Part shown: piece after piece, positions 12,481 to 46,292 of the stretch
Layout: each line of letters opens with the position of its first letter
Position numbering within the stretch: position 1 is the stretch's first letter
Program-made: the position numbers and the translations under genes
Source: Halorubrum sp. CSM-61
GTDB taxonomy: Archaea > Halobacteriota > Halobacteria > Halobacteriales > Haloferacaceae
DNA length: 64,000 nucleotides
Reading direction: 5' to 3'
Assembly: GCF_003781945.1 (NCBI RefSeq)
Contig: NZ_RJJW01000001.1
Span: 453,921-517,920, forward strand
Notes under the pieces: generated by a model
The model's input: the letters and a program-made list of their open reading frames with translations, nothing else
The model's database searches: none
What the model was told of the DNA's origin: nothing

Positions 12481-12505
12481 ACGGGAAACCGTCCCCGGTG
12501 ACCAC
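12481..12505 (+). promoter_or_regulatory. GAAA-hairpin leader with GGTGACCAC
   Basis: ACGG-GAAA-CCGT hairpin at 12481-12492, then GGTGACCAC (12497-12505; GGTGA pairs with the 16S 3' end) and ATG at 12507. One of nine such leaders here. The CTATACAT upstream (about 12447) can serve as TATA; the CATAGTAA promoter box is absent. Confidence 0.65.
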
Positions 12506-12506
12506 G

Positions 12507-12644
12507 ATGAGCCACAACCCCCTTACACAGACGCGACAGCGGCACAGTACCAACGGTATCGATAGCGGTACCGATACCGATACCGAACACGATACCGATA
12601 GCGATACCACCGCCAGAATCAGCGCGAGCGAGGTGCTGGCGTAA
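12507..12644 (+). CDS. Small Thr/Asp-repeat protein (45 residues)
   Basis: The start is fixed by the GGTGACCAC leader. The peptide begins MSHNPLTQTRQ, where codons 3-6 are the CACAACCCCCT element read in frame, and continues as a TDTDTEHDTDSDT tract encoded by GATACC units. It ends in TAATG, coupling it to the HTH gene at 12644. It looks like a leader peptide or a DNA-repeat carrier rather than a folded protein. Confidence 0.55.
   Translation: MSHNPLTQTRQRHSTNGIDSGTDTDTEHDTDSDTTARISASEVLA
12512..12523 (+). promoter_or_regulatory. GCACAACCCCCT element (one mismatch)
   Basis: CCACAACCCCCT, placed just inside the 12507 ORF (codons 2-6) rather than before the start. It shows the element's position relative to ATG is not fixed. 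Confidence 0.5.
12555..12608 (+). repeat. GATACC repeat cluster
   Basis: At least five GATACC units, some in the inverse form GGTATC, spaced 6-12 bp. They encode the SGTDTDTEHDTDSDT tract. Confidence 0.65.
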
Positions 12645-13039
12645 TGTCCGCAGGTACGATGGCTTCCGACAGTAAGATCACCCAGAACGGTGATATGGGG
12701 CTGTCAGTGTTCGGCACGGGAGTCACTGATTACGATTACGCGGCGGCGATCGAACGCGGACAGCGGCCGTGGCGTGATCGTGGCGTACTGGCGTATCTCC
12801 GGATCGAGAAGGGCATGTCTTTTCGACAGATCGCTCAGGAAGCCTTCGAGGGCGAAATTAGCTCAGAGGGTGTTCGGCAGGCAGCGATAAGGAACGGTAT
12901 CGAAGACGAGCGCAAGAGTAACCCCGAAAACCTCAGTCCACGCGAGCTGGCGCTCCGGTACTCGGAGGAGGACGACTCGGAGATGCCCGAGGGCGACGAC
13001 TCGCACAAGAAGTACACGCTCCGGGGAAGCGATAGATAA
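12644..13039 (+). CDS. Homeodomain-like HTH hypothetical protein
   Basis: 131 residues. Residues 45-90 form a helix-turn-helix-like unit (GVLAYLRIEKGMSFRQIAQ, SSEGVRQAAIRNGI), as in small DNA-binding proteins that choose sites by sequence. The tail is acidic with a basic end. The start overlaps the preceding stop (TAATG). A second ATG 15 bases on (MASDSK) is possible. It lies directly upstream of the clamp operon and might regulate it; that is inference. Confidence 0.6.
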   Translation: MSAGTMASDSKITQNGDMGLSVFGTGVTDYDYAAAIERGQRPWRDRGVLAYLRIEKGMSFRQIAQEAFEGEISSEGVRQAAIRNGIEDERKSNPENLSPRELALRYSEEDDSEMPEGDDSHKKYTLRGSDR

Positions 13040-13119
13040 ATCGCGAGCCGTCGGCGAGAGAGACACGCACACGATTGCCGCGCAATTGCGACTCAGGTCG
13101 GAGGGTGGCTCCCTCACGT

Positions 13120-13136
13120 CCCGGTTCGATTCCGGG
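13120..13136 (+). other. tRNA T-arm-like hairpin
   Basis: CCCGG-TTCGATT-CCGGG, followed by CCGACCC. A partial 5' match (GTCGG at 13050-13054) and an intervening GAGGG/CCCTC hairpin give a loose tRNA-like outline of about 95 nt, but the D- and anticodon arms do not fit. Confidence 0.3.
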
Positions 13137-13154
13137 CCGACCCCTGCGGCTGCG

Positions 13155-13166
13155 GCACAACCCCCC
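13155..13166 (+). promoter_or_regulatory. GCACAACCCCCC element
   Basis: Copy with a final C, directly abutting the ATG at 13167. Confidence 0.6.
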
Positions 13167-13253
13167 ATGACGACGACACGACTGCGCGCCTTCGGGCGCA
13201 CGACAGCAGCGGTATCGAGTAGCAACCACACGCGGACGGAGCCTGACCGATGA
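13167..13253 (+). CDS. Leader micro-ORF before the sliding clamp
   Basis: 28 codons ([16 protein letters not shown]...), starting directly after GCACAACCCCCC. Its TGA overlaps the clamp ATG (ATGA at 13250-13253). Basic and Thr-rich, no recognisable fold. The same design, with an unrelated peptide, precedes the second clamp gene and the 31245 surface-protein gene, which points to a role in coupled translation rather than a peptide function. Confidence 0.5.
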
Positions 13254-14077
13254 GCGGCGCCGAGACGGTCTCGGCGGACGCCACGGAGACCGAGGCGGGC
13301 TTCAAGGCGATCGGCGAACAGCAGTACTTCGCCGACTTCTTCGAGCAGTTCGACCCGCTCGCGGACGAGATGAAGCTCCACCTCGACGACGGTGGGCTCT
13401 TCGGGATCGTCGTCGACCCGGCGTCCGTCGGCATGTGCCGGGACAGCCTCGATCGCGAGGCGCTCGAACACTACTCGGCGACGGGCGGCGTGATCGGGCT
13501 CAACATCTCACGTATCCTCGATATTCTCGGGATGGGGAACAGCGAGGACCTCGTGGAACTGGAGCTGGATACCGAGACGCGGAAACTCCACATTCAGGTC
13601 GACGGGCTCTCGTACACGCTCGCGCTGATCGACCCGGACTCGATCCGCAAGGAACCCGAGATTCCGGACGACCTCGATCTGCCGGCGACGATGACGGTCG
13701 ACTTCGCGGACCTCAAACGCGGGATCACCGCCGCGGACATGGTAAGCGACCACATTCGGTTCCGGACGGGCTTGAGCGAGGAGGGGAAACTCGCGGTCTA
13801 CATCGAGGCCGAGGGCGACACCGACGACGTGGATCTGGAGCTGACCCACGAGAAACTGGTCGCCATCGACGCCGAGCCCGGCGACGGTGACTCGCTGTTC
13901 TCGCTCGACTACCTCAAGGATATCAAGAAGCCGATTCCGAAGGACGCCGAGGTCCGGATCGAACTGGGCGAAGAGCACCCGATCAAGTTCCACTACGGAC
14001 ACACGGAGATGGGCGAGGACGGCGAATTGGCGGGTGACTGCACAATCCTCCTCGCACCCCGTATTCAGAGTGACTGA
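13250..14077 (+). CDS. pcn: DNA polymerase sliding clamp (PCNA homologue)
   Basis: 275 residues, slightly longer than chromosomal PCNA (about 247) because of a 20-residue N-terminal extension. Family blocks are clear: [51 protein letters not shown], the interdomain [33 protein letters not shown] and the C-terminal LAPRIQSD. The protein would form the trimeric ring that tethers polymerases and PIP-box proteins. As an element-borne copy it may support element replication or replace the host clamp. It heads a compact operon running to about 20.5 kb. Confidence 0.92.
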
Positions 14078-14079
14078 CA

Positions 14080-14445
14080 ATGTCGGAGACCCAAACTGAC
14101 GACGACGGGATCCCGGAGGAGGTCGACGACGCGTTCCTCGCGAAACTGGAGGCCGTCGCGAACGCCGAACAGCGCGTCGCCGAACTGACGGCGGAACTGG
14201 AGCGCGTGGATATCGGTCTCGACGACGAAGACACGCGGCGCCTGTTGTGGGCGCACCTCACCGGCTGGTCGCTGTCGGATATCTCCGAAGCGTTCGAGGC
14301 CGTCGACGACCTCCAGCGTCGCGACTCCCGAGACCTCACCGTCCGCCTGCTCGCGCAACTCTCGAACAACTCGCGCGAGGACGTTCGCGACTTCCTCGAC
14401 GAGTGCGACCGGCTCGAACGGAAGTACGGCACGGAGGACCAATGA
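14080..14445 (+). CDS. Hypothetical coiled-coil protein
   Basis: 121 residues, strongly acidic and almost all helical (ANAEQRVAELTAELERV, RDSRDLTVRLLAQLSNN). It starts two bases after the clamp stop and shares ATGA with the next gene. Not recognised. Confidence 0.65.
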   Translation: MSETQTDDDGIPEEVDDAFLAKLEAVANAEQRVAELTAELERVDIGLDDEDTRRLLWAHLTGWSLSDISEAFEAVDDLQRRDSRDLTVRLLAQLSNNSREDVRDFLDECDRLERKYGTEDQ

Positions 14446-14756
14446 GCGCCGAACAGGCGACGCTCCACGTCGACGCCGACCACGGACTGTGGGTGCCGCC
14501 CGAGGTCCGCGAGTTCGACAAGCAGATCGTGTTCCGAACGCCGCGATCGACGCTCCAGCACTTCGGATCCGGCCCGCTCGATCCCTACTACGGGATGATC
14601 ACTGCGGACTCGTTCGGCGACACCGAGGACCTGCACGATCCGAAGAATCCCGAGCTCGCACCGAATCAGGTCTCGATCATGAAGCAGGGCGAAGAGGCGA
14701 TCGTGTTCGAGGTGGAGTGCGTGATAGACGACCCCGGAAATCGGAGGGCGCTCTGA
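14442..14756 (+). CDS. Hypothetical protein
   Basis: 104 residues starting at the ATG in the ATGA overlap (14442). Mixed beta structure with aromatic patches (HGLWVPPEVREFDKQIVF, DPYYGMITADSF). The stop forms TGATG with the next ORF. Not recognised. Confidence 0.6.
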   Translation: MSAEQATLHVDADHGLWVPPEVREFDKQIVFRTPRSTLQHFGSGPLDPYYGMITADSFGDTEDLHDPKNPELAPNQVSIMKQGEEAIVFEVECVIDDPGNRRAL

Positions 14757-14881
14757 TGGACCACGCGAGTCGGATGGAAGCGCAGTTGCGAATGGTCGAT
14801 AACGACACAGAAGACGACGACAGCGAGAACGACGAAGACGACGACTCGGAAGACGCCGACACGGAGGGCGACGGTGAATGA
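14756..14881 (+). CDS. Small acidic protein (41 residues)
   Basis: Starts in TGATG and ends in ATGA. After a short amphipathic start (MDHASRMEAQLRMV), nearly every residue is Asp, Glu or Ser. It may be a spacer gene keeping coupled translation through the operon. Confidence 0.5.
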   Translation: MDHASRMEAQLRMVDNDTEDDDSENDEDDDSEDADTEGDGE

Positions 14882-16170
14882 CCGACTCGGACAGCGCCGA
14901 GAACGAGACGGTGAAGGCGTGCCCGTACTGCGACAGCGCGTCGATCGTCACGAACAGCGCCGGCGGCGGACGGACGTACAACCCCGACGCCGACCAGTAT
15001 CGGTGTGCGGACTGCCAACAGACGTTCGACGAGCCGAACGAGCGAGAATCAGGCGGTGATCCCGGTTTTAGGACGGACTCGCTCGCGTCAAAACTCGATG
15101 CGGCGCATCCGGACGACCTTGTGACTGACGGCGGGGTGGAGCGACGCCGCCGGATCGCGATCCGGGGGAACCCGATTCGGTTCGACACACCGACGCCGTA
15201 CGAGGGCTGGTTTGAGAACCTCCCCTCGACGTTCGACCTCGACGGCGGCTTCACGAAGACCGCCCGCGGCGGTGCGGGCTTCGTCATGCTGGACCCGGAA
15301 CGTGAGCCACTGGATCAACCGGCGACCGGTCACCGACCGGGCCTCTGTTTCGACGTGGAGAGTACGGAGATGCGCGACGCCTGCCACGAGGCGATCGCCG
15401 CCCACCTCGATACTGAGCCTGCCGTGCATGAGGTGCGCCACCAGAAGAGCGGGTATCACACCGACCTCGTGTACTGCGAGCTCGACAAAGACGGCGTGGC
15501 CGCTCGGCGAGAGATGACGACCGGCACCGATCCGCTGCACGACCCGCTCCAGCGATTCAAGGTGTGGTGGTACGTGAACGAGTACGGGCCGAAGGGCCGG
15601 CAGGAGGTCGTCGAAAACGGGAAGTACTCAGATGACGCGACGAATCGCAAACACGTCGAATGGCTGCTCGAACACGGCTATCTCGCGACGACCGCGACGG
15701 GCATGGTGTCGGCGGTGACGCCACCCTCGATCGGGACCTTCCACGCCGTCGAACTGAAACTTCGCAATTGGGAGACGGCGCTCGAACAGGCGGCGCGAGC
15801 CCGCCGGTGCGACGTTGACACCGATATGTACCGGTCCATGCGTCCGGGGTTCTACGACCGATACGGATACGCCGATTACGCGTGGGTCGCGCTCGACGCC
15901 GGCGCGATCGAGCCCGCGCTGGAGAATCTCGACCGGTTCCGAGAGGCGGGCGTCGGTCTCATCGCAATCGCCGAGGGAGGCGCGGTGATCGAACACCTGG
16001 ACGCCGAGTACCGTCCCCGGCGCCGATACACTCGTGATCGGGCGTGGGTCGAAAGCGAGGTGTGGGCCCGTCTAGACGACGACCGAACCGAGGCGGAGAC
16101 AGGAACGGGCTCCAGCGAGACGGTCCCGAACCAGCAACGCCTCGACGCGCTCGGAGGGACGGATGACTGA
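14878..16170 (+). CDS. Zinc-ribbon protein with PD-(D/E)XK nuclease-like C-terminal domain
   Basis: 430 residues. Residues 15-50 form a zinc ribbon (CPYC...CADC). The C-terminal part, about residues 285-365, has the pattern FHAVELKLRNWETALEQAA followed by DYAWVALDAG and FREAGVGLIAIA, matching the E-x-K strand, helix and late GVGL strand of PD-(D/E)XK nuclease-like proteins. The middle may be a winged helix (HVEWLLEHGYLATTATG). A DNA-processing role in the clamp operon fits, but catalytic activity is inferred. The 21046-21702 product has a decayed version of the same domain. Confidence 0.5.
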   Translation: MTDSDSAENETVKACPYCDSASIVTNSAGGGRTYNPDADQYRCADCQQTFDEPNERESGGDPGFRTDSLASKLDAAHPDDLVTDGGVERRRRIAIRGNPIRFDTPTPYEGWFENLPSTFDLDGGFTKTARGGAGFVMLDPEREPLDQPATGHRPGLCFDVESTEMRDACHEAIAAHLDTEPAVHEVRHQKSGYHTDLVYCELDKDGVAARREMTTGTDPLHDPLQRFKVWWYVNEYGPKGRQEVVENGKYSDDATNRKHVEWLLEHGYLATTATGMVSAVTPPSIGTFHAVELKLRNWETALEQAARARRCDVDTDMYRSMRPGFYDRYGYADYAWVALDAGAIEPALENLDRFREAGVGLIAIAEGGAVIEHLDAEYRPRRRYTRDRAWVESEVWARLDDDRTEAETGTGSSETVPNQQRLDALGGTDD

Positions 16171-16585
16171 GGTTCGCGGCCTTCGCGACGCCTACGACGA
16201 GCTGGCCTACGAACAGGTCGCGTGCTCGCCGTCGCTCTCGGTCCCGACCGCAACGCCGGCACGGTTCGCGTACGCCGACTCGCCGGGCGTGACTGACGCC
16301 GATGCGATCGCCGACCGGCTCGCGGACTCGCCGATCGCGTTCCTCGACGTACTCGCGACGAACGGCGAGTCGTGGTACGAGTTCCACGTCTCCAGCGCGG
16401 CGTACGATGACGAGCATGGAGGCGACTGCAAAGTCACGATCACGACCGCCGGCGTGACCGTCGTCCGGACGCACCGCGACCTGTCGCGCGAGGCGTTCGA
16501 GCGCGTCGTCGAGGCGATCGCCAACGCCGTCGACGCGCCGCTGCGGTTCGACAAGACTGACGAACAGAGACACGGCCATGACTGA
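16163..16585 (+). CDS. Hypothetical protein
   Basis: 140 residues overlapping the previous gene by 8 bp. Beta-strand patches (YEFHVSSAAY, CKVTITTAGVTVVRTH) lie between helical ends; two Cys are not in a zinc pattern. Not recognised. Confidence 0.6.
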   Translation: MTEVRGLRDAYDELAYEQVACSPSLSVPTATPARFAYADSPGVTDADAIADRLADSPIAFLDVLATNGESWYEFHVSSAAYDDEHGGDCKVTITTAGVTVVRTHRDLSREAFERVVEAIANAVDAPLRFDKTDEQRHGHD

Positions 16586-16650
16586 CCGCGCCCCGGCCAA
16601 ATCTGTACGCTGGAACGGGCTTTGACAACGATACCGACGACTGACACACT

Positions 16651-17316
16651 ATGGTCTCCAAAGACAAAATCGAGGCGGACGGCCTCACGACCGAGGACGT
16701 ACTGGACGTTGAAACCGCGCAGCCGCAGACCGAGGTTCGGATCCTTCCGGAGTGGGAAGAGCACCCCGAGGAGCGCCCCGGCGAGAACCTCCGGATCGAA
16801 GAGAACACGCTGCTGTACGACCGCGACGGCTTCGAGGTCGCGATCGAGAGCTACGAGACGACGCACTGGCGCGTCGAGCTTTCGATCCCGAAGGAGGTCG
16901 GGAAGTGGTACCCGCGGCCGCTCGATCTCAAGTGCCTGTCCGTCCCGGAGTACGGGTTCGTCGAGTCGGTCGAAACCTCCGACAGCTACGAGACAATCGG
17001 CGCGACGCTGATCATTCAGGAGAACTTTCAGCCGACCTTCGAGGTTCGAGAGGTCATTGAGCACCTGCTGGAGAACGCTGAGGCGAGCGAGGAGTTTACC
17101 GAGGAGCTCGACGAGAAACTCGAAGCCGCTCGCGAGAACGAACGCGAGCTGAAAGAACAGAAGATTCCGGGGTGGGACGGAGAGGCCTTCACCTGCCCAC
17201 ACTGCAAGGAGGATGCAACGCACGCTGCCGTCGACGACGACCCGGACGACCCGGACGTGAAGTGTATCCACTGCGGCGAGTCGATCGCCGAGTGGGTCGA
17301 CCTCCCCACGGAGTAA
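16651..17316 (+). CDS. Hypothetical protein with C-terminal zinc ribbon
   Basis: 221 residues. A beta-rich N-terminal two-thirds (GFEVAIESYETTHWRVELSIP) is followed by a charged coiled coil (about 130-172) and a zinc ribbon CPHC...CIHC at the end. There is a 65-bp gap from the preceding stop, so a separate start signal is possible. Not recognised; nucleic-acid or protein scaffolding is plausible. Confidence 0.6.
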   Translation: MVSKDKIEADGLTTEDVLDVETAQPQTEVRILPEWEEHPEERPGENLRIEENTLLYDRDGFEVAIESYETTHWRVELSIPKEVGKWYPRPLDLKCLSVPEYGFVESVETSDSYETIGATLIIQENFQPTFEVREVIEHLLENAEASEEFTEELDEKLEAARENERELKEQKIPGWDGEAFTCPHCKEDATHAAVDDDPDDPDVKCIHCGESIAEWVDLPTE

Positions 17317-17320
17317 GTGC

Positions 17321-17617
17321 ATGGCTCAGTCTACCGGCACACCCCCGACCCCCGACACGCCCACCGAGGCGACGAACCCCGACGACGCGACCGTTCGCGA
17401 TCGCGTGTGGGATGCGACGCTCTGTCTCCTCGCGGTTCGCCCGATCCCGTTTCAGGCGTGGCGCGTCCGGCGCCGGGCCGGACTCGGCGCCTCTCACGAT
17501 CGGACGATCCGACGGACGCTCACCGTCATGGCCGAGGCGGGTTGGCTCGAACACGAACCGAACAGTAAGTGGTGGCACCCCGGCCCGAAGGCCGACGAGC
17601 GCCTCACCGGCGAGTGA
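17321..17617 (+). CDS. Winged-helix protein
   Basis: 98 residues. After a Pro/Thr-rich start, residues 28-95 look like a winged helix (DRVWDATLCLLAVRPIPF, RTIRRTLTVMAEAGWLEHE). It starts four bases after the previous stop and is followed by a 19-bp operator-like palindrome. It may be the last gene of the clamp-1 operon and a candidate for binding that palindrome. Confidence 0.6.
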   Translation: MAQSTGTPPTPDTPTEATNPDDATVRDRVWDATLCLLAVRPIPFQAWRVRRRAGLGASHDRTIRRTLTVMAEAGWLEHEPNSKWWHPGPKADERLTGE

Positions 17618-17628
17618 TAGCGCCCCAC

Positions 17629-17647
17629 GTTACTATACGATAGTAAC
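17629..17647. promoter_or_regulatory. Operator-like palindrome GTTACTAT-N3-ATAGTAAC
   Basis: Perfect 8-bp arms with a 3-bp spacer (ACG). It lies between the 17321 gene and the second clamp unit. The 31082 site has the same arms and spacing. Confidence 0.65.
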
Positions 17648-17691
17648 GAATAGAAAGCCCGGATGTACGGTTCTATCTACTTCTACTGGAC

Positions 17692-17722
17692 GGTACCGAT
17701 ATCGATACCGAAAGCGATACCG
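17692..17722 (+). repeat. GATACC repeats, intergenic
   Basis: GGTACCGATATCGATACC followed by GATACC after AAAGC. No gene is coded here, so the repeat is conserved as DNA and not only as the Asp-Thr tract it encodes elsewhere. Confidence 0.65.
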
Positions 17723-22503: not shown

Positions 22504-22560
22504 GTGGTCACCTGCGCTTTCGCGTGTCTCGGCGTACTCCAGCCGCAGGTATAATAGTTA
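22504..22560 (-). promoter_or_regulatory. GAAA-hairpin leader with GGTGACCAC and promoter
   Basis: On the minus strand: GCATAGTAACTATTATA (promoter, about 22544-22560), then a short CGC-GAAA-GCG hairpin (22514-22525), then GGTGACCAC (22504-22512) and the ATG at 22499. Confidence 0.65.
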
Positions 22561-22602
22561 CTATGCAAAACAAGCGTACAGACGAAACGAGGGGTGTCGA
22601 AC

Positions 22603-26578: not shown

Positions 26579-26592
26579 AGGGGGTTGTGCAT
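26515..26592 (-). CDS. Leader micro-ORF overlapping the TGT-like start
   Basis: 25 codons (MHNPLCPLQYRSSDV...). Its ATG at 26592, not the ATG of the TGT-like gene, has the correct spacing from GGTGACCAC. Codons 2-5 are the CACAACCCCCT element. It runs out of frame through the first 64 bases of the TGT-like gene, so it could limit or couple that gene's translation. Confidence 0.45.
   Translation of the reverse strand: MHNPLCPLQYRSSDVIEQPSTSGWV
26579..26590 (-). promoter_or_regulatory. GCACAACCCCCT element
   Basis: Exact copy directly before the ATG at 26578 and overlapping the ATG at 26592. Confidence 0.6.
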
Positions 26593-26594
26593 CG

Positions 26595-26670
26595 GTGGTC
26601 ACCTGCGCGCCGGGTTTCCCCGGCCTTGCCACTACGTCTCTTGCGCTCTTACTTATAATTTACTACGTAG
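26595..26670 (-). promoter_or_regulatory. GAAA-hairpin leader with GGTGACCAC and promoter
   Basis: Promoter with CTACGTAGTAAATTATAAG (about 26651-26669); CCGGG-GAAA-CCCGG hairpin at 26610-26623; GGTGACCAC at 26595-26603. Confidence 0.7.
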
Positions 26671-27566: not shown

Positions 27567-27650
27567 GTGGTCACCCGCAACCCGAGTTTCCTCGGGGGCT
27601 ACCTGCACTAACACACGCACCCCACATAAGTATTACTATGCAAAATAGAC
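27567..27650 (-). promoter_or_regulatory. GAAA-hairpin leader with GGTGACCAC and promoter
   Basis: Promoter TTTTGCATAGTAATACTTATG (about 27624-27644); CCCGAG-GAAA-CTCGGG hairpin (27581-27596); GGTGACCAC (27567-27575). The GAG/CTC pairs differ from other copies in a compensatory way. Confidence 0.7.
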
Positions 27651-29657: not shown

Positions 29658-29735
29658 GTGGTCACCTGCGAGCCGGGTTTCCCCGACTCACTTCGATAGT
29701 ATACCCGACCACACATATATCTTACTATGTAGAAT
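29658..29735 (-). promoter_or_regulatory. GAAA-hairpin leader with GGTGACCAC and promoter
   Basis: Promoter CTACATAGTAAGATATATG (about 29715-29733); CGGG-GAAA-CCCG (29674-29685) extended by GTGAG/CTCGC; GGTGACCAC (29658-29666). Confidence 0.7.
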
Positions 29736-29744
29736 AGACTTATT

Positions 29745-29837
29745 CTCTAAGTCTGTTATACATAGTAATACTTATGTAGCGGGCGCTTCTTTGGATAGAC
29801 GCGCACGGGGGAGAACCCCGACGCGCAAGGTGACCAC
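29745..29837 (+). promoter_or_regulatory. GAAA-type hairpin leader with GGTGACCAC and promoter
   Basis: Promoter TACATAGTAATACTTATG (29758-29775); hairpin GCGC-A-CGGGG / CCCCG-A-CGCGC with loop GAGAA (29801-29826); GGTGACCAC (29829-29837). The hairpin starts about 28 bp after the TATA centre, that is at the expected transcription start. Back-to-back with the 29658-29735 promoter. Confidence 0.75.
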
Positions 29838-30475: not shown

Positions 30476-30545
30476 AGGGGTAACGCACTCCGCCCGCCGA
30501 TCGCGGTCTCATTCTTTGCAGTCTGGTTAAGTCTACTCTACATAG

Positions 30546-30615
30546 TAACACTTATGTGAGGTTCGTCCGTTGTGTAGGATGCGCGAGGGCGAAAGTCCGA
30601 CGTGCAGGTGACCAC
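30546..30615 (+). promoter_or_regulatory. GAAA-hairpin leader with GGTGACCAC and promoter
   Basis: Promoter CTACATAGTAACACTTATG (30538-30556); GCGCG-A-GGGC-GAAA-GTCC-G-A-CGTGC hairpin (30581-30605); GGTGACCAC (30607-30615) abuts the ATG. Confidence 0.75.
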
Positions 30616-31062: not shown

Positions 31063-31081
31063 CGCGCCGGCCCGCTCTCAC

Positions 31082-31100
31082 GTTACTATCATATAGTAAC
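31082..31100. promoter_or_regulatory. Operator-like palindrome GTTACTAT-N3-ATAGTAAC
   Basis: Perfect 8-bp arms, spacer CAT. It lies 70 bp upstream of the 31171 micro-ORF; a GATATTTTC TATA-like box is between them. Confidence 0.65.
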
Positions 31101-31170
31101 GAATACCCGGCCTCGATATTTTCACGCGCCGGCGGAACGACTATTACACGCCGCCGAGTCGTGTCAATCG

Positions 31171-31248
31171 ATGCGACAGACACGGCACAACCCCCTTCCA
31201 GAGTCTCGACCGTCCCTCCCAACCACTGATCGCCGGAGGCCGACATGA
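31171..31248 (+). CDS. Leader micro-ORF before the surface protein
   Basis: 25 codons (MRQTRHNPLPESRPS...), Arg-rich. GCACAACCCCCT (31185-31196) is read as HNPL in frame. The TGA overlaps the surface-protein ATG (ATGA at 31245-31248). Confidence 0.5.
   Translation: MRQTRHNPLPESRPSLPTTDRRRPT
31185..31196 (+). promoter_or_regulatory. GCACAACCCCCT element
   Basis: Exact copy inside the 31171 micro-ORF. Confidence 0.6.
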
Positions 31249-34200
31249 ACGCCCGATTCGAGCGCGTGGTCGCGGTTGCGTGCGCGCTCCTGATCGTCGT
31301 CTCGATGACGACCGCCGGGCTGGGGCTCGCGACGGCGCCCGCGGCCGCACAGAGCGACACGAACGGCACCGCAACCGTTTCCGACGACTTCGAGGCGTAC
31401 GAGGTCGGCGCGAGTAGCCCCGGCACGTGGACGGCGCCGAGCGGCTCGTCGGGCAACGCGATCGTCGGCGGCTCGTTCCTCGGCGATCGGGCGCTGGAGG
31501 TGACGGACTCGGACGGCGCCGCGATCTACGAGGGCGCGACGGTCGACAGTAGCGACGCCGTCATTCAGACGGTCGTGCGCGGCACCAATGCGGGCGGATA
31601 CATCCAGTTCGGCGGCGTCACGCTCGAAGTGAATACGGGCGAGTTTACGAACCGACTCCGGCTCGCGGACGGTGACGGCGAGACGATCGTCGACGGCGCC
31701 GCGCCGACGGCGGGCGAGTGGGCGAACGTCGAACTGGTTGCGGAGGACGACAACCTGAAAGCGACGACGTGGGCGGTCGGCACGGACAAGCCGAACACGT
31801 CCGATATCGAGCTGTCGGGCGTCGACACGACGGGCGATCTGGAGGTCTCCACCGTGAACACGGACGACGTGCTCACCGTCGATCAGGTGTCCGTGCAGCC
31901 GTACTCGACGCTCGGCAGCCAGACGGTCTCCGGGACGGTCACCGACCAGTACGGCGAGCCCGTGCCGAACGCGACCGTGCAGGCGGTCGGCGTCACGCAA
32001 AGCGCGCTCGATGGCGACGATCTGAAAGCGGAGGCCGACGCACTCCTGGACGACCTCTCCGACCCACTGCCGGACGCGTTCAACGCCGACGCCGACCTCG
32101 GCGAGCGGTACGCGGACGCCGACGGCACCTATGCCGCGGTCCACCCGGCGAGCGCGTGGAACCTCGGCGGCGTCAGTCTCGGGTCGAACACGGTGTCCCC
32201 CTCAGTCACCCCGAGTCTCGACACGCCCGACGTGGTCCTCCCGGCGGACGAACGCCTGATCGTCTCGACGTGGGACGCCGGCGCCACGGGCGGGACGCTC
32301 TCGCAGGACGGCGTCGATAGCTCGCTGCCCGGTGCGACGACTGCCGAGTCCGTGGTCATCGAGCAGCTCGGGCCGACCGGGGAGACGACCCACACGCGGA
32401 CGGTCGACCCGCAGCCACTCGTCGAGGTGACGGCGTTCGCGAATCTCGGCGCGAAGACCCACGAGGGCGCGGTCGTCGACCTCCCGCCGGGTATCTACCG
32501 CGTGCATCCCGACGGGTCGGCAACGCCGGTCGTCGTTGCCGTCGGCGAGCCCGCAGCGCTCGCGAGCACGATCGAGACGGACCTCCGAGATGACGCCGAC
32601 CGACTGACGGCGCGGGCCGACCGGGTGCGCGGGCTCGCGACGGACGGCGCCGTGACCGATCTATCGACAGAGACGAACGCGACCGGCGCGTACAGCATGG
32701 AGGTCCCGAGTAATGTCGAGGCCGTCCATCTACAGGCGTTCGGCGTCGACGGCGACACGCAGGCCGTCCTCGACACGGACGCCGAGAACGCGTCGCTTGG
32801 AGACGTGCGCGACGCCTACGCGGACGGGTACGCCGGCACGGTGACGCTGTCGACGACGCCCGTTCGGGCCACGCCGCCGGACGAACAGGCGGATCTGTCG
32901 GTCCAGCGTCTCGACGCCCCGCCCGTTGCGTCCCCCGACGCGTTCGAGGCCCGGCTCAATGCGTGGGCGAACGACACGCTCGACACCCGACTGTCGGACC
33001 TCGAACCCACGCTCGCCGACGATATCGCTGGCGACGAGCTGGCGCGCGAGGATCTCACGGCGCTCCACGAACGCCTCGACGCGCTCCGCGAACAGAACGA
33101 CGCGCTCGATGCACGACTTCGCGACCGTCTCGACGAGCCGATCGAGAATCCCGGTGACGCCGATCGCGACGCACTCCGCAAGGAGGTCGCCGCCATGCAG
33201 GCCGCGATTGCCGACCTCCAGCACACGATCGACGCCGAGACGCGCGAGACCGACCTGTCGGATGGAACGCTCGCGTACGAAACCGTGTTCGACGCGCCGA
33301 TCCCCGCCGAGACCGTCGCCGTCACCGCCACGTACGGCGACGGGACGACCGAGCGACTCCCCGATGAGTACGTGACGGTCGAGGAGGGCGGCATCGGCCC
33401 GCTCTCGTCGACAACCGTCGCGATCGAGGAGTACCCCGTGCCCGATGGGACTGAGGTCGCGGACGTACGCGTGCAGGTCGCTGTCAACGACCGGCTCGGG
33501 GAGAGTCGCGAGCGCGTTGCAAGTGATACGCTCGATAGCGACCTCGCGTCACTGGACGCGATCACGGTCTCCACGCTCGATCCCGGCCCGGACGACCGAG
33601 TCACCCTCGGCGTCAACGCCGGCGAGCAAACGCAGGTCGTCGACGTGGCCGCGCGCAACCCCGCGGGCGAGCCCGTGGACGCGTCGGTCGAGAACGGGCA
33701 GGCGACCGTCCGAACTGACGGCCAGGGGATGCACGCGATCGCGCTGACGTACGAACAGGCCGGCGTTACGGTGACGGAGACGCTCCGCGTCGAGGCCGGC
33801 GCAACGAGTAGCCCGACGCCCGCGACCGTCCGGCTGGCCGAGGGGCCGAGTGGGACGTACGCGATCACGTCCGGGCTCGCCGGCGCGACCGTCGACCGCA
33901 CTGGTGACGAACTGGCGATCGAAGCGCGCGCCGAATCCGGGGAGTCGCCGAGTGCCGTCCATCTCTACCCGCAGACGGCCATGACGGGCGAGACGGACAC
34001 GGTCGCCGTCGAGGTCGTACAGGCGGACGGCGAGACCAGCCTCGACCGGCACGCCTCCGTGTACGTGCATACGACGGGGCTCGCGGACGACGCGTTGCTC
34101 TGGCGAGACGACGCCCCGATCACGCGAGCGGGAGACACGCAGTACGGCGAAGTCCTCGATCGCGACGATGGGAAGCGCGTCGTCTCCACCTACACCGACG

Positions 34201-34310
34201 CGGACGGCCGGGTGACGGTCGACGTTCGTCACGATCCGAACGCGCTCGAACGCGCGCAACACTGGACGGCCGCCCGCTCGCCGGTCGCGATTCCGGGGCT
34301 CTCCGGGTAG
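31245..34310 (+). CDS. Large secreted surface protein
   Basis: 1021 residues. Sec signal at residues 8-35 (VACALLIVVSMTTAGLGLA, cut near AAAQS). A LamG/CBM-like beta-sandwich covers about 45-220. A carboxypeptidase-regulatory-like segment starts at GTVTDQYGEPVPNA, a coiled-coil stalk lies about 560-670, and two or three Ig-like domains extend to the C-terminus. There is no transmembrane or PGF-type anchor, so it is released or held non-covalently. Paralogue of the protein cut at the left window edge. Probable adhesin. Confidence 0.75.
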   Translation: MNARFERVVAVACALLIVVSMTTAGLGLATAPAAAQSDTNGTATVSDDFEAYEVGASSPGTWTAPSGSSGNAIVGGSFLGDRALEVTDSDGAAIYEGATVDSSDAVIQTVVRGTNAGGYIQFGGVTLEVNTGEFTNRLRLADGDGETIVDGAAPTAGEWANVELVAEDDNLKATTWAVGTDKPNTSDIELSGVDTTGDLEVSTVNTDDVLTVDQVSVQPYSTLGSQTVSGTVTDQYGEPVPNATVQAVGVTQSALDGDDLKAEADALLDDLSDPLPDAFNADADLGERYADADGTYAAVHPASAWNLGGVSLGSNTVSPSVTPSLDTPDVVLPADERLIVSTWDAGATGGTLSQDGVDSSLPGATTAESVVIEQLGPTGETTHTRTVDPQPLVEVTAFANLGAKTHEGAVVDLPPGIYRVHPDGSATPVVVAVGEPAALASTIETDLRDDADRLTARADRVRGLATDGAVTDLSTETNATGAYSMEVPSNVEAVHLQAFGVDGDTQAVLDTDAENASLGDVRDAYADGYAGTVTLSTTPVRATPPDEQADLSVQRLDAPPVASPDAFEARLNAWANDTLDTRLSDLEPTLADDIAGDELAREDLTALHERLDALREQNDALDARLRDRLDEPIENPGDADRDALRKEVAAMQAAIADLQHTIDAETRETDLSDGTLAYETVFDAPIPAETVAVTATYGDGTTERLPDEYVTVEEGGIGPLSSTTVAIEEYPVPDGTEVADVRVQVAVNDRLGESRERVASDTLDSDLASLDAITVSTLDPGPDDRVTLGVNAGEQTQVVDVAARNPAGEPVDASVENGQATVRTDGQGMHAIALTYEQAGVTVTETLRVEAGATSSPTPATVRLAEGPSGTYAITSGLAGATVDRTGDELAIEARAESGESPSAVHLYPQTAMTGETDTVAVEVVQADGETSLDRHASVYVHTTGLADDALLWRDDAPITRAGDTQYGEVLDRDDGKRVVSTYTDADGRVTVDVRHDPNALERAQHWTAARSPVAIPGLSG

Positions 34311-35546: not shown

Positions 35547-35640
35547 TTATCCGGTGGCGTGTCCGTTCGTGTAGAGCCCGCTGCTGCCGGTGTCCATGTT
35601 GTGGTCACCTTGCGCGTCAAACCGCAAACGCAACTCTTTC
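35547..35640 (-). promoter_or_regulatory. Orphan GGTGACCAC leader with 16-codon ORF
   Basis: GGTGACCAC (35601-35609) precedes an ATG at 35597, but the frame (MDTGSSGLYTNGHATG) stops at 35547. The hairpin is imperfect (GCG...CGC without GAAA). It looks like a leader whose gene was lost, possibly when the 34406-35448 cassette arrived. Confidence 0.45.
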
Positions 35641-41175: not shown

Positions 41176-41522
41176 GCATCGAGAACGCCTCGACGCCGTC
41201 GCGGCCGCTCCCGCGCGTCCGGGTCGAACAGCCCGGCGCCGAACGCGGCGCCGACGACGTGCGCTCCCACCTCGACGAAGACCAGTGCGTACTCTGTGGC
41301 GCCCCCGACGCACCCCGTGTGCGAGTTGAAATCCCGTGGGTCGGGAAGCACGGACTCCGGCACGTCTGTCGCGGGCATCCCGAACACCCCGATCATCCGG
41401 GGTACCCTAGCCCGGAGAACCCGACCGAGCACCGGTTCTGTCCGGGGTGTGGGGCTGTGGATCGACTCCTCTCGGCCGGCGTGTGCCGCGCCTGTTTCGA
41501 CCCGACGGAGGACGCCCGATGA
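41172..41522 (+). CDS. Small double zinc-ribbon protein
   Basis: 116 residues. One ribbon is CVLC followed by H-x-C-x-GH (about residues 39-70), the second CPGC...CRAC near the end. ATGA overlaps on both sides. It precedes the Dam-like methyltransferase pair and may help bind DNA; this is inference. Confidence 0.6.
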   Translation: MSIENASTPSRPLPRVRVEQPGAERGADDVRSHLDEDQCVLCGAPDAPRVRVEIPWVGKHGLRHVCRGHPEHPDHPGYPSPENPTEHRFCPGCGAVDRLLSAGVCRACFDPTEDAR

Positions 41523-42094
41523 GCGGCACCGTTCTCTCGGCGCAGGTTCCCGACGAAGACGACACCGAGTACGCGACTCCCTACCGTATCTGGCGGCCGC
41601 TCTCGTGGGCCGTCGACGGCTTCGACCTCGACCCGGCGAGTGGAGCCGAGCCCGTTCCGATCGCCGACCAGCGGTACACTGAGGCGGACGACGGGCTGGC
41701 GCAACCGTGGCACGGAGACGTATTCCTGAATCCGCCGTGGACCAGCGAAGACAGCGACGGCACGCCGAAACGCCGCTGGCTCCGGAAGGCGCGGAACGAG
41801 GCGCAGCGCGACGCGGTCGATACCGTGGTCGTGCTCCTCCCCGCCGCGACGGAAGCCGGCTGGTTCCGCGAGCACATGTGGGGCGCGCCGGCGTTGTGCT
41901 TCGTCGGTCCCGGCCGGATTCCGTTTCTCGGTGAAGACCGCAACCCGTCGTTCGCACTCGCGATCGCGGCGTTCGGCGACGTGTCGACCGCCCTCCTCGA
42001 CGTGCTGGATGGCTTCGGCGTCGTCGTGACGCCCGGCAATGTGTACGACCCCCACCCGCAGACAACGCTCCCTGGGGCTACCGATGAGCACTGA
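41519..42094 (+). CDS. Phage-type DNA N6-adenine methyltransferase (Dam-like)
   Basis: 191 residues in the compact Dam-like layout of phage methyltransferases: TPYRIWRPLSWAVDGFDLDPASG (SAM site), GDVFLNPPWTS with the catalytic NPPW, then VVVLLPAATEAGWFRE. The start is in ATGA. A second copy follows immediately, so the two are tandem paralogues that may differ in target. Confidence 0.75.
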   Translation: MSGTVLSAQVPDEDDTEYATPYRIWRPLSWAVDGFDLDPASGAEPVPIADQRYTEADDGLAQPWHGDVFLNPPWTSEDSDGTPKRRWLRKARNEAQRDAVDTVVVLLPAATEAGWFREHMWGAPALCFVGPGRIPFLGEDRNPSFALAIAAFGDVSTALLDVLDGFGVVVTPGNVYDPHPQTTLPGATDEH

Positions 42095-42722
42095 CGACAC
42101 CGCCGCGCCGACGACCGCCGACGGAACGAGCATGGCGTTCGTCGCCAACAAGAAGAAGGACTCGTGGCGGACACCGCCCGCGCTCTACGAGCCGATCGCC
42201 GAGGCCGTCGACGGGATCGACCTCGATCCGTGTGCCGGCCCGTCCGGCGACCGCCTCGAACTACCCGATGACGCCGAGCCCGCTGAGGACCTCCCGCCCA
42301 CGGCGATCGCCGAGCGGAACGTCATGCCGTGGGAGGACGGCCTATCAGTCCCGTGGCAAGGTGACGTGTTCGTGAACCCGCCCTTCTCGGACGTGGGAGA
42401 GTGGCTCCCGACCGCGATCGGCGCGTGGATGGCCGGCGACGCCGACCGCGTGTTCTTCGTCACGGCTGCGAACACCGGGACGGTCTCGTGGTACCACCGC
42501 TGGATCGCGTCGTTCGCGTCGGTGACGTACTTCACCGGGCCGCGGCAGAACTACGTCGATCCCGAAACGAACGAGCTGGCGAGCGGCGTCTCGTTCAACA
42601 CGGCCGTGAGCGTATTCGGGACGATCCCCGAGTCGCTGGCGGAGTACTGGCGACAGGAGGGAGACCTCGTGGTTCGCCCGTGGAACGCCGGCGGGATCGT
42701 CGAGGACGGAGGCGACCGATGA
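42084..42722 (+). CDS. Phage-type DNA N6-adenine methyltransferase (Dam-like)
   Basis: 212 residues. DSWRTPPALYEPIAEAVDG, IDLDPCAGP and GDVFVNPPFSDVG (catalytic NPPF) align with the preceding gene; FFVTAANTGTVSWYHR follows. Overlaps its neighbour by 11 bp. No cognate nuclease is certain, though an HNH gene lies two genes downstream. Confidence 0.78.
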   Translation: MSTDDTAAPTTADGTSMAFVANKKKDSWRTPPALYEPIAEAVDGIDLDPCAGPSGDRLELPDDAEPAEDLPPTAIAERNVMPWEDGLSVPWQGDVFVNPPFSDVGEWLPTAIGAWMAGDADRVFFVTAANTGTVSWYHRWIASFASVTYFTGPRQNYVDPETNELASGVSFNTAVSVFGTIPESLAEYWRQEGDLVVRPWNAGGIVEDGGDR

Positions 42723-43135
42723 TGGGGCTGGTCCGCCGGCTCGGCGCCCGGCTCCTCCACCGTATCGACGAGCACTGGTTCACCGTCGAATGGTGGCCTG
42801 CGGTCAACATGGCCGTCGTTTCGTGTGTCGCGTGCGACGAGTACGCGCTCGATATCACGCGGAAGGACCCCTCGACCGATGACGTGATCTGTGAGCGACA
42901 CCCGGCTGCACGGGATGCGGACGGAACAATCATCGTCACCCACCCGCGGACGGTGGCGGCGCTCGAAGACGACGTTGCACTCGTCGATCCCGACTTCAAA
43001 CTCCGGGCGAACGTCATCGACGACGCTCCCGACGATGCAATCCGCGAGGTCGGGCTGTACGAGGTCGATGTCGAACGAATGGAGGCGCTCGTCGAGAGCG
43101 ATCTGTGGGACGTACCGACTGGAGGCGAGCCATGA
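42719..43135 (+). CDS. Hypothetical protein
   Basis: 138 residues. CVACDEYALDI and a later C-x-RHPA motif suggest a zinc site. Remaining sequence is acidic and alpha/beta (AALEDDVALVDPDFKLRA). Start in ATGATG; a second ATG three bases on is equally possible. Confidence 0.55.
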   Translation: MMGLVRRLGARLLHRIDEHWFTVEWWPAVNMAVVSCVACDEYALDITRKDPSTDDVICERHPAARDADGTIIVTHPRTVAALEDDVALVDPDFKLRANVIDDAPDDAIREVGLYEVDVERMEALVESDLWDVPTGGEP

Positions 43136-43683
43136 GCAATCGCCCCAGAGACCGGCAGAAAGGCATGGATACGCTGTTCCCGATGGCCGACGCCCACTCG
43201 TGTCGCGTGTGCAACGAGCACGTCGAGGACGGCCGTCGGAACTACTGCTGTCCGCGCTGTAAGCGAATCGCGACGGCCGTCCAGCGCATGTTCGTCTGGG
43301 ACTGTGTCCGCGAGGCCGTCCTCGAACGCGACGACTACACCTGCCGGGAGTGCGGGCTCTCGAAAGCGCAGGCGGAGCGGGCATACTGGCAGACGCACGA
43401 CCTCGCGAAAGCAAAATCCGACTCCAGCGATGAGTTCTGGAGCCTCTGGCGGGAATACGGTGTGACGGAGTTTCAGATTTTCGAGGTCGACCATATCGAG
43501 CGCGTCGCCGACGGCGGGCATCCGTTCGACGAGACAAACCTCCAGACGCTCTGTAAGTACTGTCACCGCGACAAGACGGCCGCGGAGAACCGGACGAACG
43601 AGCCGGCGGTCGAGGAGCGGCCAGAGCTCGGCCTCGACGCCTACCTGGACACCGCGACCGACGGCGGGGAGGACGACCGATGA
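43132..43683 (+). CDS. HNH endonuclease
   Basis: 183 residues. An N-terminal zinc ribbon (CRVC...CCPRC) and a linker with CRECGLSK precede the HNH core at about residues 120-150: EVDHIERVADGG, then NLQTLCKYCHRDKT, with the metal-binding His and the closing CxxC. HNH proteins cut DNA in restriction, packaging or mobility. Between Dam-like methyltransferases and an ASCH protein, restriction or site-specific nicking is plausible. Confidence 0.85.
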   Translation: MSNRPRDRQKGMDTLFPMADAHSCRVCNEHVEDGRRNYCCPRCKRIATAVQRMFVWDCVREAVLERDDYTCRECGLSKAQAERAYWQTHDLAKAKSDSSDEFWSLWREYGVTEFQIFEVDHIERVADGGHPFDETNLQTLCKYCHRDKTAAENRTNEPAVEERPELGLDAYLDTATDGGEDDR

Positions 43684-43772
43684 ACACCGGTGTGCAAGTG
43701 TTCGCCCGGCCGGTTTCACGAATCGAGCGACAGCCAACGCCGGTCTCCATGGCGGTGTCACATGTCGAGTGA
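43680..43772 (+). CDS. Small ORF linking HNH and ASCH genes (30 residues)
   Basis: ATGA overlap with the HNH gene; it ends 11 bp into the next gene. Basic peptide (MNTGVQVFARPVSRIER...). Probably a coupling ORF; peptide function unsupported. Confidence 0.35.
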   Translation: MNTGVQVFARPVSRIERQPTPVSMAVSHVE

Positions 43773-44109
43773 AACCCCCAGCCTCGCGTTCGCAGACGAA
43801 CACGTCCCGCGAATCCTGTCCGGCCAAAAGACCGCGACCATCCGCCTCGATCTGGACTCGCGAATCCAACTCGGGCGGAGCGTCACGTTCGTCGATTCCG
43901 AGCGCGAGCGGTTCGCCACTGCCGTCGTCGACGATCGTGGCTACGAGCGCCTCGCAGTGCTCGCTCGGCAGGGCGTCCCCGGCCACAAACAGTACGACCG
44001 GCCGGCCGAGCTCGTGGCAGAAATGCGCGAGTACTACCCCGGACGACGCGTGACGGGCGACACGCTCGCGGACGTACTCTACTGGGAGCGTGAGTCACTA
44101 TGGGAGTGA
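43762..44109 (+). CDS. ASCH/PUA-like domain protein
   Basis: 115 residues from ATG at 43762. The pattern is ASCH-like: LAFADEHVPRILSGQKTATIRLD, GRSVTFVD and a strand-rich middle, ending GDTLADVLYWERESL. ASCH domains bind RNA or modified nucleosides and are frequent in viruses and plasmids. It might act with the transglycosylase or methyltransferases; this is inference. Confidence 0.65.
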   Translation: MSSETPSLAFADEHVPRILSGQKTATIRLDLDSRIQLGRSVTFVDSERERFATAVVDDRGYERLAVLARQGVPGHKQYDRPAELVAEMREYYPGRRVTGDTLADVLYWERESLWE

Positions 44110-44456
44110 CGGAGACGCGACAGACACGGTTCGACGCCCCGCCGCGGGCTCCGCGCTTCGATGAGACGGAGTCGGTCGTGACGCGTCGCGTGTTCCGGTG
44201 TGACGGCCACGGGTACGAGCACATGATCGAGTACGATCTGGCCGAGGCAGTCGATCGATTCGCCTACGAGGGCAAGCTCGACACGTTCATCGAGTGGTTC
44301 GAAGACGCTCGCGACGGCGACGGCAGGGTGTACGTCGACGACGGCGGCCACCGTGTGTTCCGACGGGGTGACCTGCTGTTTGCGTGCAACGTCGAGGAGG
44401 TATCACGGCAGTTCCGGCGGATCTACTTTACGGTCGACGTAGTGGACCGATCGTAG
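44100..44456 (+). CDS. Hypothetical protein
   Basis: 118 residues, overlapping the ASCH gene by 10 bp. Beta strands (VTRRVFRCDGHGYEHMIEYD, RRIYFTVDVVD) and one acidic helix. Two Cys without a zinc pattern. Last gene of the operon; converges on the 44457 gene with no gap. Confidence 0.55.
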   Translation: MGVTETRQTRFDAPPRAPRFDETESVVTRRVFRCDGHGYEHMIEYDLAEAVDRFAYEGKLDTFIEWFEDARDGDGRVYVDDGGHRVFRRGDLLFACNVEEVSRQFRRIYFTVDVVDRS

Positions 44457-45746
44457 CTAGTCGCTTTTCGCAATTCGCTTTGCGAGGTCCATTACCGTCT
44501 CGATATTCGTTGCATCGTCGTCTTTCGTTGTTGTGCTGCCGTTCTCGACAATATCAGAGGGGTTCGTGAACATCTGTCCCATCGAGACGAGCATGAACTC
44601 GGCGAGCTGTGCATCGGTTTCATCAAGCGATTTCTGTGACTCCAGTACCTTTCGAGAGGGTTCAAGTGTCTGTGCCATCGTCGATTTGAAGGCGTATTCC
44701 TCCATGAGGCGACGCTTCCGGGAGTAATTCTTAGACGTAAACCAAACGGCCACAAGTAGGGGAACCAAGAGCGTCACACGCGATACTGTACCGATACCAA
44801 AGCTGGTAGATTGTAGGAGACTCCAAAAAATCACGATAGCTCCCACAATGAGAACGGCTATCGCACCAAAGGTACTTTTGGCCCACCAGTTCGCTGACTC
44901 TTCCAGTTCTTTCTTCCGCTCAGTGAAGTTCCGATCAAGAGATGCTGCAACCGCACCGCTAAGTAGTGTATCAATCCGATCTTCAATGTCATCGAGACTG
45001 TTTTTCTGCTGATTTAATTGCTCAGATCGCTCTTCTACCTCAGAGAGGTTTGTATCGAGACGATCTTCGTAGTCGCTCATCTGCTCAGTCTTTTTGAGAA
45101 CTTCCTCGTAGTGTTCGTTGATAGTCTCTGCTTCCTTCTTGATATTCTGAGACGTGTTTGAAGCCTTGTTTTCAATTCCTACTAAGTTCTCTTGAGACTC
45201 TTCTGCCGAAGAGACAATCCCGTCGATCTTCTCTTGCAGGTGAGATACGCCCTCATAGATAGAGTTTATATCTTGTTGCGTCTCTTCGGCTTGTTCGAGG
45301 TTCTGGATAACCTTCTGGTGCTCCTCCCGAGTTTGTTCTAGTTTATGTAATTGCTCGGAGAAATCAAGGTGTTCTCCAACCCGCAAATCCAGATTCAAGT
45401 TGATGATGTAGGATTTCAGGTTATCAACCTGCTTGATAAAATCACGCCCCGGGTTATTGTTCCGAGAATTTTTGTTTCTAATGTGGTTGGCCTGCTTACG
45501 TACATTCACCAATCGCTTCTTAATATTGTTCTGCTGATTGTCCCCGTAAATTTGAATAATATCTTCTTCAATTGCAGTGTCAAGCAACTCAGAGACATAT
45601 TTAAAGTCTGCAATCGCTTCGTTTAGGGTTCCACCGCTGTGCTCTGTCGTATAGTTTTCTTCTTCTGCTATCTGAGCGAACTCGCTGACATTGTCAAAGC
45701 TCTCGTGTTCGAGTGTATTCCGGATCTGCTCTATGCGCTTGCTCAT
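44457..45746 (-). CDS. Coiled-coil membrane protein, AT-rich cargo
   Basis: 429 residues. A long coiled coil (about 105-265, with many LEQAEETQQDI-type heptads) is followed by two transmembrane helices (FGAIAVLIVGAIVIFWSLL and VTLLVPLLVAVWFTS) and a cytoplasmic helical tail. Codon use is much more AT-rich than in neighbours, so recent acquisition is likely. This architecture occurs in membrane-acting defence or signalling proteins, but no family was identified. Confidence 0.6.
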   Translation of the reverse strand: MSKRIEQIRNTLEHESFDNVSEFAQIAEEENYTTEHSGGTLNEAIADFKYVSELLDTAIEEDIIQIYGDNQQNNIKKRLVNVRKQANHIRNKNSRNNNPGRDFIKQVDNLKSYIINLNLDLRVGEHLDFSEQLHKLEQTREEHQKVIQNLEQAEETQQDINSIYEGVSHLQEKIDGIVSSAEESQENLVGIENKASNTSQNIKKEAETINEHYEEVLKKTEQMSDYEDRLDTNLSEVEERSEQLNQQKNSLDDIEDRIDTLLSGAVAASLDRNFTERKKELEESANWWAKSTFGAIAVLIVGAIVIFWSLLQSTSFGIGTVSRVTLLVPLLVAVWFTSKNYSRKRRLMEEYAFKSTMAQTLEPSRKVLESQKSLDETDAQLAEFMLVSMGQMFTNPSDIVENGSTTTKDDDATNIETVMDLAKRIAKSD

Positions 45747-45799
45747 TTTATACTACTGATTAGTCCATGAATAAGAATGATCCCCACTCTGTTTAAGTC

Positions 45800-45879
45800 C
45801 TTTCTGCATAGTAAATATTAAGTAGGTCCCGCTCCTTGAGAGAGACGTGCTCGGGGAAACCCGGCGCGCAAGTGACCAC
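45800..45879 (+). promoter_or_regulatory. GAAA-hairpin leader with AGTGACCAC and promoter
   Basis: Promoter AAGTCC-N5-TGCATAGTAAATATTAAG (45795-45822); GTGC-T-CGGG-GAAA-CCCG-GCGC hairpin (45847-45867); AGTGACCAC (45871-45879). GTGC/GCGC has a U-G pair, again compensatory. Confidence 0.7.
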
Positions 45880-45881
45880 AC

Positions 45882-46292
45882 ATGGACGGAACATTCGACG
45901 ACGTAACCGCAGAACAGCCTACAAACAACCGCCTCGACAACGACGCGCCGTGGAGCGCGGTCGAACAGCGCATGACCGAGAAGCTCGATGAGTCGGCCGA
46001 GATATTCGACAGCGTCGAGACGATCCACGAGTGGGACGGCCTCGACGAGTGGGACGCAGAGTACACCGAGGGCAGCTCGTCGATCGCGTTCGAGCACCCC
46101 GACGGCGCGTTGGTCCGGATCAGCGAGGGCTCGGTGGACGGCGGGTTCGACGTGCATACGTCGACGGGCACAGAGCGGGCGGTCCCGCAGCGCGCGATCG
46201 TCTCGACGAAGTCCTACGTCCATAGCCTTGACCGGTGTGTGACGACGGCCGTCGCTCAGATCTGTGCGTACAGTCGCAACAGCTCGTTCTGA
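45882..46292 (+). CDS. Hypothetical protein
   Basis: 136 residues from the ATG set by the hairpin leader. Acidic, with aromatic-rich middle (TIHEWDGLDEWDAEYTEG) and beta strands (ALVRISEGSVDGGFDVHTS). GC-rich like the element core, unlike its neighbours. Not recognised. Confidence 0.65.
   Translation: MDGTFDDVTAEQPTNNRLDNDAPWSAVEQRMTEKLDESAEIFDSVETIHEWDGLDEWDAEYTEGSSSIAFEHPDGALVRISEGSVDGGFDVHTSTGTERAVPQRAIVSTKSYVHSLDRCVTTAVAQICAYSRNSSF

Follow-up and report, generated by a model that had tools for sequence, protein, structure and literature searches.

The window analyzed here, a 64,000-nucleotide stretch of Halorubrum sp. CSM-61 (positions 453921–517920 of C11, a 594-kb contig), carries nine copies of a short gene leader, one of them degenerate, in which a small hairpin, mostly closed by a GAAA loop, is followed by the 9-mer GGTGACCAC and a start codon. 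By DNA and gene-order similarity, the window belongs to a pR1SE-like (apHPV) mobile element. The apHPVs are plasmids of haloarchaea that are disseminated in self-encoded plasmid vesicles. With pR1SE2 from Halorubrum lacusprofundi (NZ_KX906370) as the reference, 40% of a 25-kb query aligns at 84.6% identity. The window is largely collinear from 5 to 52 kb with pR1SE2 from 61 to 11 kb, and many of the encoded proteins are 70–90% identical. pR1SE itself spreads from cell to cell in plasmid-coded membrane vesicles, and approximately 40 relatives have been named apHPVs (PMC10818511).

All nine leaders described in the initial annotation were found where it placed them, including the copy at 35601, which is degenerate as it had reported (Table 1). 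The order in eight of the nine is hairpin, 9-mer and start codon, and the 9-mer is exactly GGTGACCAC at eight sites and AGTGACCAC at one. The start codon had been said to lie 0–6 bases beyond the 9-mer; the gap is 0–4 bases in the window and 0–8 in relatives. Seven GAAA loops had been claimed and seven were counted, the loop at 29801 being GAGAA. What the annotation overlooked is the identity of the element and an ATAGTAA box that occurs in most of the promoters. Across the whole 3.7-Mb genome, GGTGACCAC followed within 0–8 nt by ATG is found 13 times (8 of them in the window), compared with 2 for the reversed pattern. A tenth true leader is located at C11:54777 on the same replicon.

Table 1. 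Leaders and associated promoter elements, in window coordinates
Feature	Positions	Strand	Hairpin or note	9-mer	Start codon and product
Leader	12481..12505	+	ACGG-GAAA-CCGT 12481-12492	GGTGACCAC 12497-12505	ATG 12507
Leader	22504..22524	-	CGC-GAAA-GCG 22515-22524	GGTGACCAC 22504-22512	ATG 22499; 266-aa protein
ATAGTAA box of 22504 leader	22558..22564	-
Leader	26595..26624	-	GCCGGG-GAAA-CCCGGC 26609-26624, then GCGCA	GGTGACCAC 26595-26603
Promoter of 26595 leader	26651..26668	-	ACGTAGTAAATTATAAGT (box variant and TATA)
Leader	27567..27596	-	CCCGAG-GAAA-CTCGGG 27581-27596	GGTGACCAC 27567-27575	ATG 27564; 250-aa protein
ATAGTAA box of 27567 leader	27633..27639	-
Leader	29658..29691	-	10-bp stem GTGAGTCGGG-GAAA-CCCGGCTCGC 29668-29691	GGTGACCAC 29658-29666	ATG 29655
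ATAGTAA box of 29658 leader	29722..29728	-
ATAGTAA box of 29801 leader	29762..29768	+
Leader	29801..29837	+	GCGCA-CGGGG-GAGAA-CCCCG-AC-GCGC 29801-29826	GGTGACCAC 29829-29837	ATG 29840; 211-aa protein
ATAGTAA box of 30581 leader	30542..30548	+
Leader	30581..30615	+	GCGC-GA-GGGC-GAAA-GTCC-GAC-GTGC 30581-30605	GGTGACCAC 30607-30615	ATG 30616; 148-aa protein
Degenerate leader relic	35601..35633	-	no GAAA hairpin		16-codon open reading frame
ATAGTAA box of 45847 leader	45808..45814	+
Leader	45847..45879	+	GTGC-TCGGG-GAAA-CCCGG-C-GCGC 45847-45869	AGTGACCAC 45871-45879	ATG 45882; 136-aa protein

The ATG of the 12481 leader opens a 45-codon open reading frame (ORF) whose length is kept in pR1SE2 and in the same-genus genome G105. 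The 29658 leader precedes a gene for a type IV pilin-like protein (Pilin_N), and a fold search with the 266-aa protein encoded behind the 22504 leader gave no reliable match. Orthologues of the 29801 leader in G105 and in a second genome of the genus, G128, have a GAAA loop, and the orthologous hairpin, CGGGC-GAAA-GCCCG, represents a compensatory change. The copy at 35601 is, by its sequence, the degenerate remnant of a leader, and in pR1SE2 the ATG of the corresponding copy is gone. The ATG of the 26595 leader begins a 25-codon ORF that overlaps a 244-codon ORF beginning 14 nt later. At this site (26580-26603, minus strand) and in its orthologues, the ORF from the leader ATG is 7–28 codons long and overlaps the main ORF. 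This short ORF is possibly an upstream ORF or a case of translational coupling.

Structure and position of the leader hairpin

Pairing and covariation were counted on 34 distinct cores, picked as the best hairpin of each leader and anchored on the loop, because MAFFT placed the C-GAAA-G stems one column off. Covariation is seen at every one of the five inner pairs, each of which changes on both sides somewhere in the set, and G-U pairs are present in the stems. The proportion of paired cells is 89.4%, compared with 58.9% in shuffles, and there are 45 double changes, compared with 17. The covariation score of 0.703 (0.207 in shuffles) is reached by none of 500 shuffles, and sliding the partner by one column leaves a score of at most 0.108. 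The initial annotation had named a lack of covariation among further copies as refuting its proposal; across the 34 cores covariation is strong. An earlier count found the four inner pairs all formed in 32 of 38 leaders, where 11.5 were expected and 18 was the maximum in 2000 shuffles. No Rfam 15 family matches within the window at the gathering score.

Because the cores had been chosen by their best hairpin, the hairpin was also sought starting from the promoter, using 33 ATAGTAA plus TATA matches chosen blind to it. The ribosome-binding motif is present at 31 of the 33. A GNRA-type (GAAA/GAGA-type) hairpin of at least three pairs occupies the expected place at 30, to which the promoter at 29762, with its GAGAA loop, may be added; the corresponding rate at random positions in the elements is 1.6%. 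The hairpins at these promoters are not due to chance.

Measured from the first base of the ATAGTAA box, the hairpin of 35 leaders begins at 39.5±2.0 nt and TATA is centred at approximately 11–12 nt. GGTGACCAC follows the box at a variable 51–67 nt, beginning 0–3 nt after the end of the hairpin. The length of the hairpin therefore varies with that of the leader, and the nearly fixed spacing from the box places the hairpin at the predicted 5' end of the mRNA, its start coinciding with the +1 expected from TATA spacing. Several earlier proposals are supported here: that the stems vary yet stay paired, that the hairpin begins 26–33 bp beyond the TATA box (consistent with the geometry of the 35 leaders), and that it lies at the expected mRNA 5' end, since it keeps step with the predicted +1 rather than with the ribosome-binding site. 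Two leaders are preceded by other promoter types without the ATAGTAA-TATA arrangement, namely those at 12481 (TATA at 12446-12456, no ATAGTAA box) and at C11:54777. The leader is therefore a module of its own and not a mere rider on one promoter.

The 3' end of the organism's own 16S rRNA (CTGGATCACCTCC / ...GGATCACCTCC) is complementary to (A)GGTGA, which is therefore a Shine-Dalgarno (SD) motif, and its distance from the start codon is ordinary (within about 4–12 nt). These two properties are common to archaeal SD motifs. However, the present motif differs from them in being a fixed 9-mer, GGTGACCAC, with a conserved CCAC and an abutting hairpin. The 16S 3' end does not account for the CCAC. 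Pairing of the motif in the RNA, GGUGACCAC, with other regions of 16S was considered and rejected, as it is no better than with shuffled 16S. Few leaders of Haloferax volcanii contain an SD motif, and in the gene examined it was dispensable (PMC3986360).

Distribution among related elements

We identified 46 leaders in seven related elements from Halorubrum-type genomes and Natrialbaceae, using a pick that demanded a GAAA, GGAA or GAGA loop and so inflates the apparent invariance of the loop. pR1SE2, which resembles the window in gene order, has the same leaders ahead of orthologous genes. Further carriers are G105 and G128, a Natronorubrum daqingense plasmid (L036), the Natrialbaceae genome G199, and G149, which has a relic. 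Among 125 Natrialbaceae genomes, promoter and leader with hairpin occur together in two, G199 and G245 (taken as N. daqingense). The Natrialbaceae orthologues are approximately 28–46% identical at the protein level and keep the leader with different stem letters; the CGC/GCG stem of the 22504 group, for example, is TGC/GCA there with the loop unchanged. In contrast, pNPA70 and pHALXA03, which contain relatives of some of the genes, show no such leaders in the 40 kb read.

A covariance model of the leader was searched against the organism's own genome, and among the matches listed all are copies in the element, which supports the proposal of an element-specific signal. Matches of about 25 bits are found in many genomes, mostly lacking the start codon and promoter and resembling chance; those that stand are only in G105, G128, G245 and G199, with one relic in G149. 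A loose pattern, GAAAC-N6..14-GGTGACCAC-ATG, was uninformative, as the matches listed are in unrelated bacteria, and a tighter collection pattern led to two viral contigs without the promoter. Judged by sequence, these leaders form a new family with a predicted 5' hairpin, and in the searches made here the family is restricted to some of the pR1SE-like elements. A literature search found no description of such a family, and the main text of the paper describing the pR1SE family does not contain the words promoter, hairpin or leader (PMC10818511).

Possible function of the leader

Given these features, the shared leader is likely a cis-acting, 5'-terminal regulatory RNA involved in translation and/or stability of the plasmid regulon. 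Copies of one mRNA leader would serve the operons of the apHPV element, with transcription starting at the 5' base of the hairpin, mostly from the ATAGTAA box and TATA promoter. The GAAA-closed hairpin would occupy nearly the whole 5' untranslated region (UTR) and end 0–3 nt before GGUGACCAC, the GGUGA of which would pair with the 16S rRNA 3' end, with the start codon 0–8 nt further on. The hairpin may cap the 5' end, so that the first unpaired stretch of the mRNA is the ribosome-binding site, and the operons of the element would thereby have their translation and/or stability set jointly. The leader is probably read by a trans-acting factor, which could be a protein of the element or some factor of the host, because both the GAAA loop and the CCAC are nearly invariant and the latter is unexplained by the anti-SD sequence. 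The sequence, covariation, geometry, anti-SD match and conservation described above are the direct basis of this reading, from which we infer the transcript 5' ends, the effect on translation or stability and the trans-acting factor.

Several points weigh against a regulatory leader of this kind. The covariation could partly reflect the choice of the best hairpin, but the slide control and the promoter-first test argue otherwise. Some copies have only 3–4 pairs, and GAAA hairpins are stable as DNA too. The +1 is predicted from TATA spacing, as are the 5' ends of the transcripts. No RNA-binding partner or domain was recognized among the scanned proteins or those common to leader-bearing elements. 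SD complementarity in the sod mRNA of Haloferax volcanii has no effect on translation (PMC3986360), and removal of the gvpH leader increases translation 15-fold (PMC4390858). Considering the latter result, the leader may lower expression, and both enhancement and throttling are possible. The gvpH and gas-vesicle leaders of Halobacterium are similar in being haloarchaeal 5' UTRs with an SD motif, shown in that case to modulate translation; however, the study describing them mentions neither a common sequence nor a recurring type of hairpin (PMC4390858).

A regulatory leader could operate in two ways, and our confidence in each overlaps with that in the leader itself. The first is a translational operator. 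In phage translational operators, a hairpin at the ribosome-binding site is bound by a coat or repressor protein. The present leader resembles them in its small hairpin, near-invariant loop and position beside the ribosome-binding site, but here many operons share the hairpin, the start site is outside it, and the binding protein is only putative. A dedicated RNA-binding protein of the element or host that recognizes the GAAA loop and GGUGACCAC, switching all operons in the manner of a phage, is a serious possibility, if somewhat short of an even chance. In the 46 loop-anchored leaders the loop is GAAA throughout, except for one orthologue group with GAGA, and GGTGACCAC is present in almost all of them, although the loop requirement of the pick inflates this invariance and the loop at 29801 is GAGAA. 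Other stable loops such as UUCG are not used, and the CCAC has the unexplained character noted above, whereas the failure to recognize an RNA-binding protein tells against an operator. More tentatively, and with some doubt, we suggest that an element-encoded factor could read the hairpin and GGUGACCAC to switch the translation of many operons together. The leaders would then mark out a post-transcriptional regulon of a vesicle-borne plasmid, and would be an archaeal family of translational operators shared by many operons.

The second way is a simple 5' stabilizer or spacer, in which the hairpin would block 5'-end-dependent decay and keep the ribosome-binding site open with no dedicated factor. 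The mRNAs of ompA and T4 gene 32 are bacterial and phage examples with 5'-terminal stabilizing stem-loops. As in those mRNAs, the hairpin precedes the ribosome-binding site and is at or near the 5' end, here a predicted one; the differences are the regulon-wide family, the archaeal element and the conserved GAAA loop. The 0–3 nt separating the hairpin from the ribosome-binding site fit this alternative, as does the existence in archaea of a 5'-3' exoribonuclease of the aCPSF2/RNase J type (PMC3792030). However, it leaves unexplained the near-invariant letters of the loop and CCAC and the persistence of 3-bp stems with an identical loop, and we consider it possible but short of an even chance.

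Alternatively, a protein could bind at the DNA level to the inverted repeat together with the nearly palindromic GGTNACC, as an operator or partition site, with any RNA hairpin incidental. GGTGACC is indeed nearly palindromic and the same elements contain real 21-bp DNA palindromes (CGTTACTA-N5-TAGTAACG). However, the leader is always in the sense orientation between the predicted +1 and the start codon, its spacing is bound to the start codon, and its stem letters vary freely while pairing is kept and G-U pairs are used, so that a DNA-level element is improbable. Recent copying of one promoter-leader cassette, with likeness due to descent without selection, would fit the resemblance of paralogues within one element in promoter and leader, but it is disfavoured by the covariation, by leaders kept with compensatory changes across host families where proteins are only ~28–46% identical, and by leaders behind other promoters, and is very improbable.

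Leaderless mRNAs are classically associated with haloarchaea. In Haloferax volcanii, 72% of mRNAs are leaderless and structured leaders were deemed not typical (PMC4983044). Here most operons of an element carry a covarying 5' hairpin directly next to an SD motif, and this arrangement is retained from one host family to another. It points to a layer of translation or decay control in haloarchaeal mobile elements that is rare in host genes. The natural stem variants offer a compact, testable system for 5' structure and SD function in archaea, and the leader may provide a handle on gene timing in vesicle plasmids.

Neighbouring motifs and genes

The 21-bp palindromes are intergenic and occur six times in the window (6104, 6165, 17628-17648, 22602, 31081-31101 and 37247), where 0.3 would be expected, and at ten more places in pR1SE2. 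They share a TAGTAA core with the leader promoters, and the ATAGTAA box resembles a half site. The palindrome is a candidate operator or partition site for an element-encoded DNA-binding protein. Another copy, at C11:54.7 kb, is on the intergenic side of a divergent pair (L030 4429-4800, C11:54.4-54.8 kb; 88.3-88.7 kb in pR1SE2) consisting of a leader gene and a gene for a 75-aa protein, and it lies between the TATA-like box and the hairpin of the leader gene. The 75-aa protein, for which a winged-helix fold is predicted, is a candidate autoregulated master regulator.

A second motif, resembling CGGCACAACCCCC, is found at or just before many start codons, on the plus strand (5058, 12513, 13156, 17810, 31186, 37360) and on the minus strand (51697, 26589, 10578, 10318, 5860). 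CACAACCCCC occurs 11 times in the window, compared with 0.14 expected. Several cases are 100–180 bp downstream of a palindrome, and the motif is present in related elements; it is perhaps a second class of leader or promoter.

The proteins of core clusters 1 and 2 of the apHPVs are ORF6-9 and ORF17-25. There are two different genes for ORF6-like proteins (putative major vesicle protein), one at 31245-34310 and one at the left edge of the window to 2449; the ORF6-like proteins of the element show 28–30% identity. A packaging-ATPase homologue at C11:47.9 kb has an internal TAG, and a separate fragment is located at C11:51.3 kb. A transposase-like ORF (~53644-54826), situated close to where the collinear region ends on the right, has a second copy with 100% identity at C11:60.4-61.6 kb.

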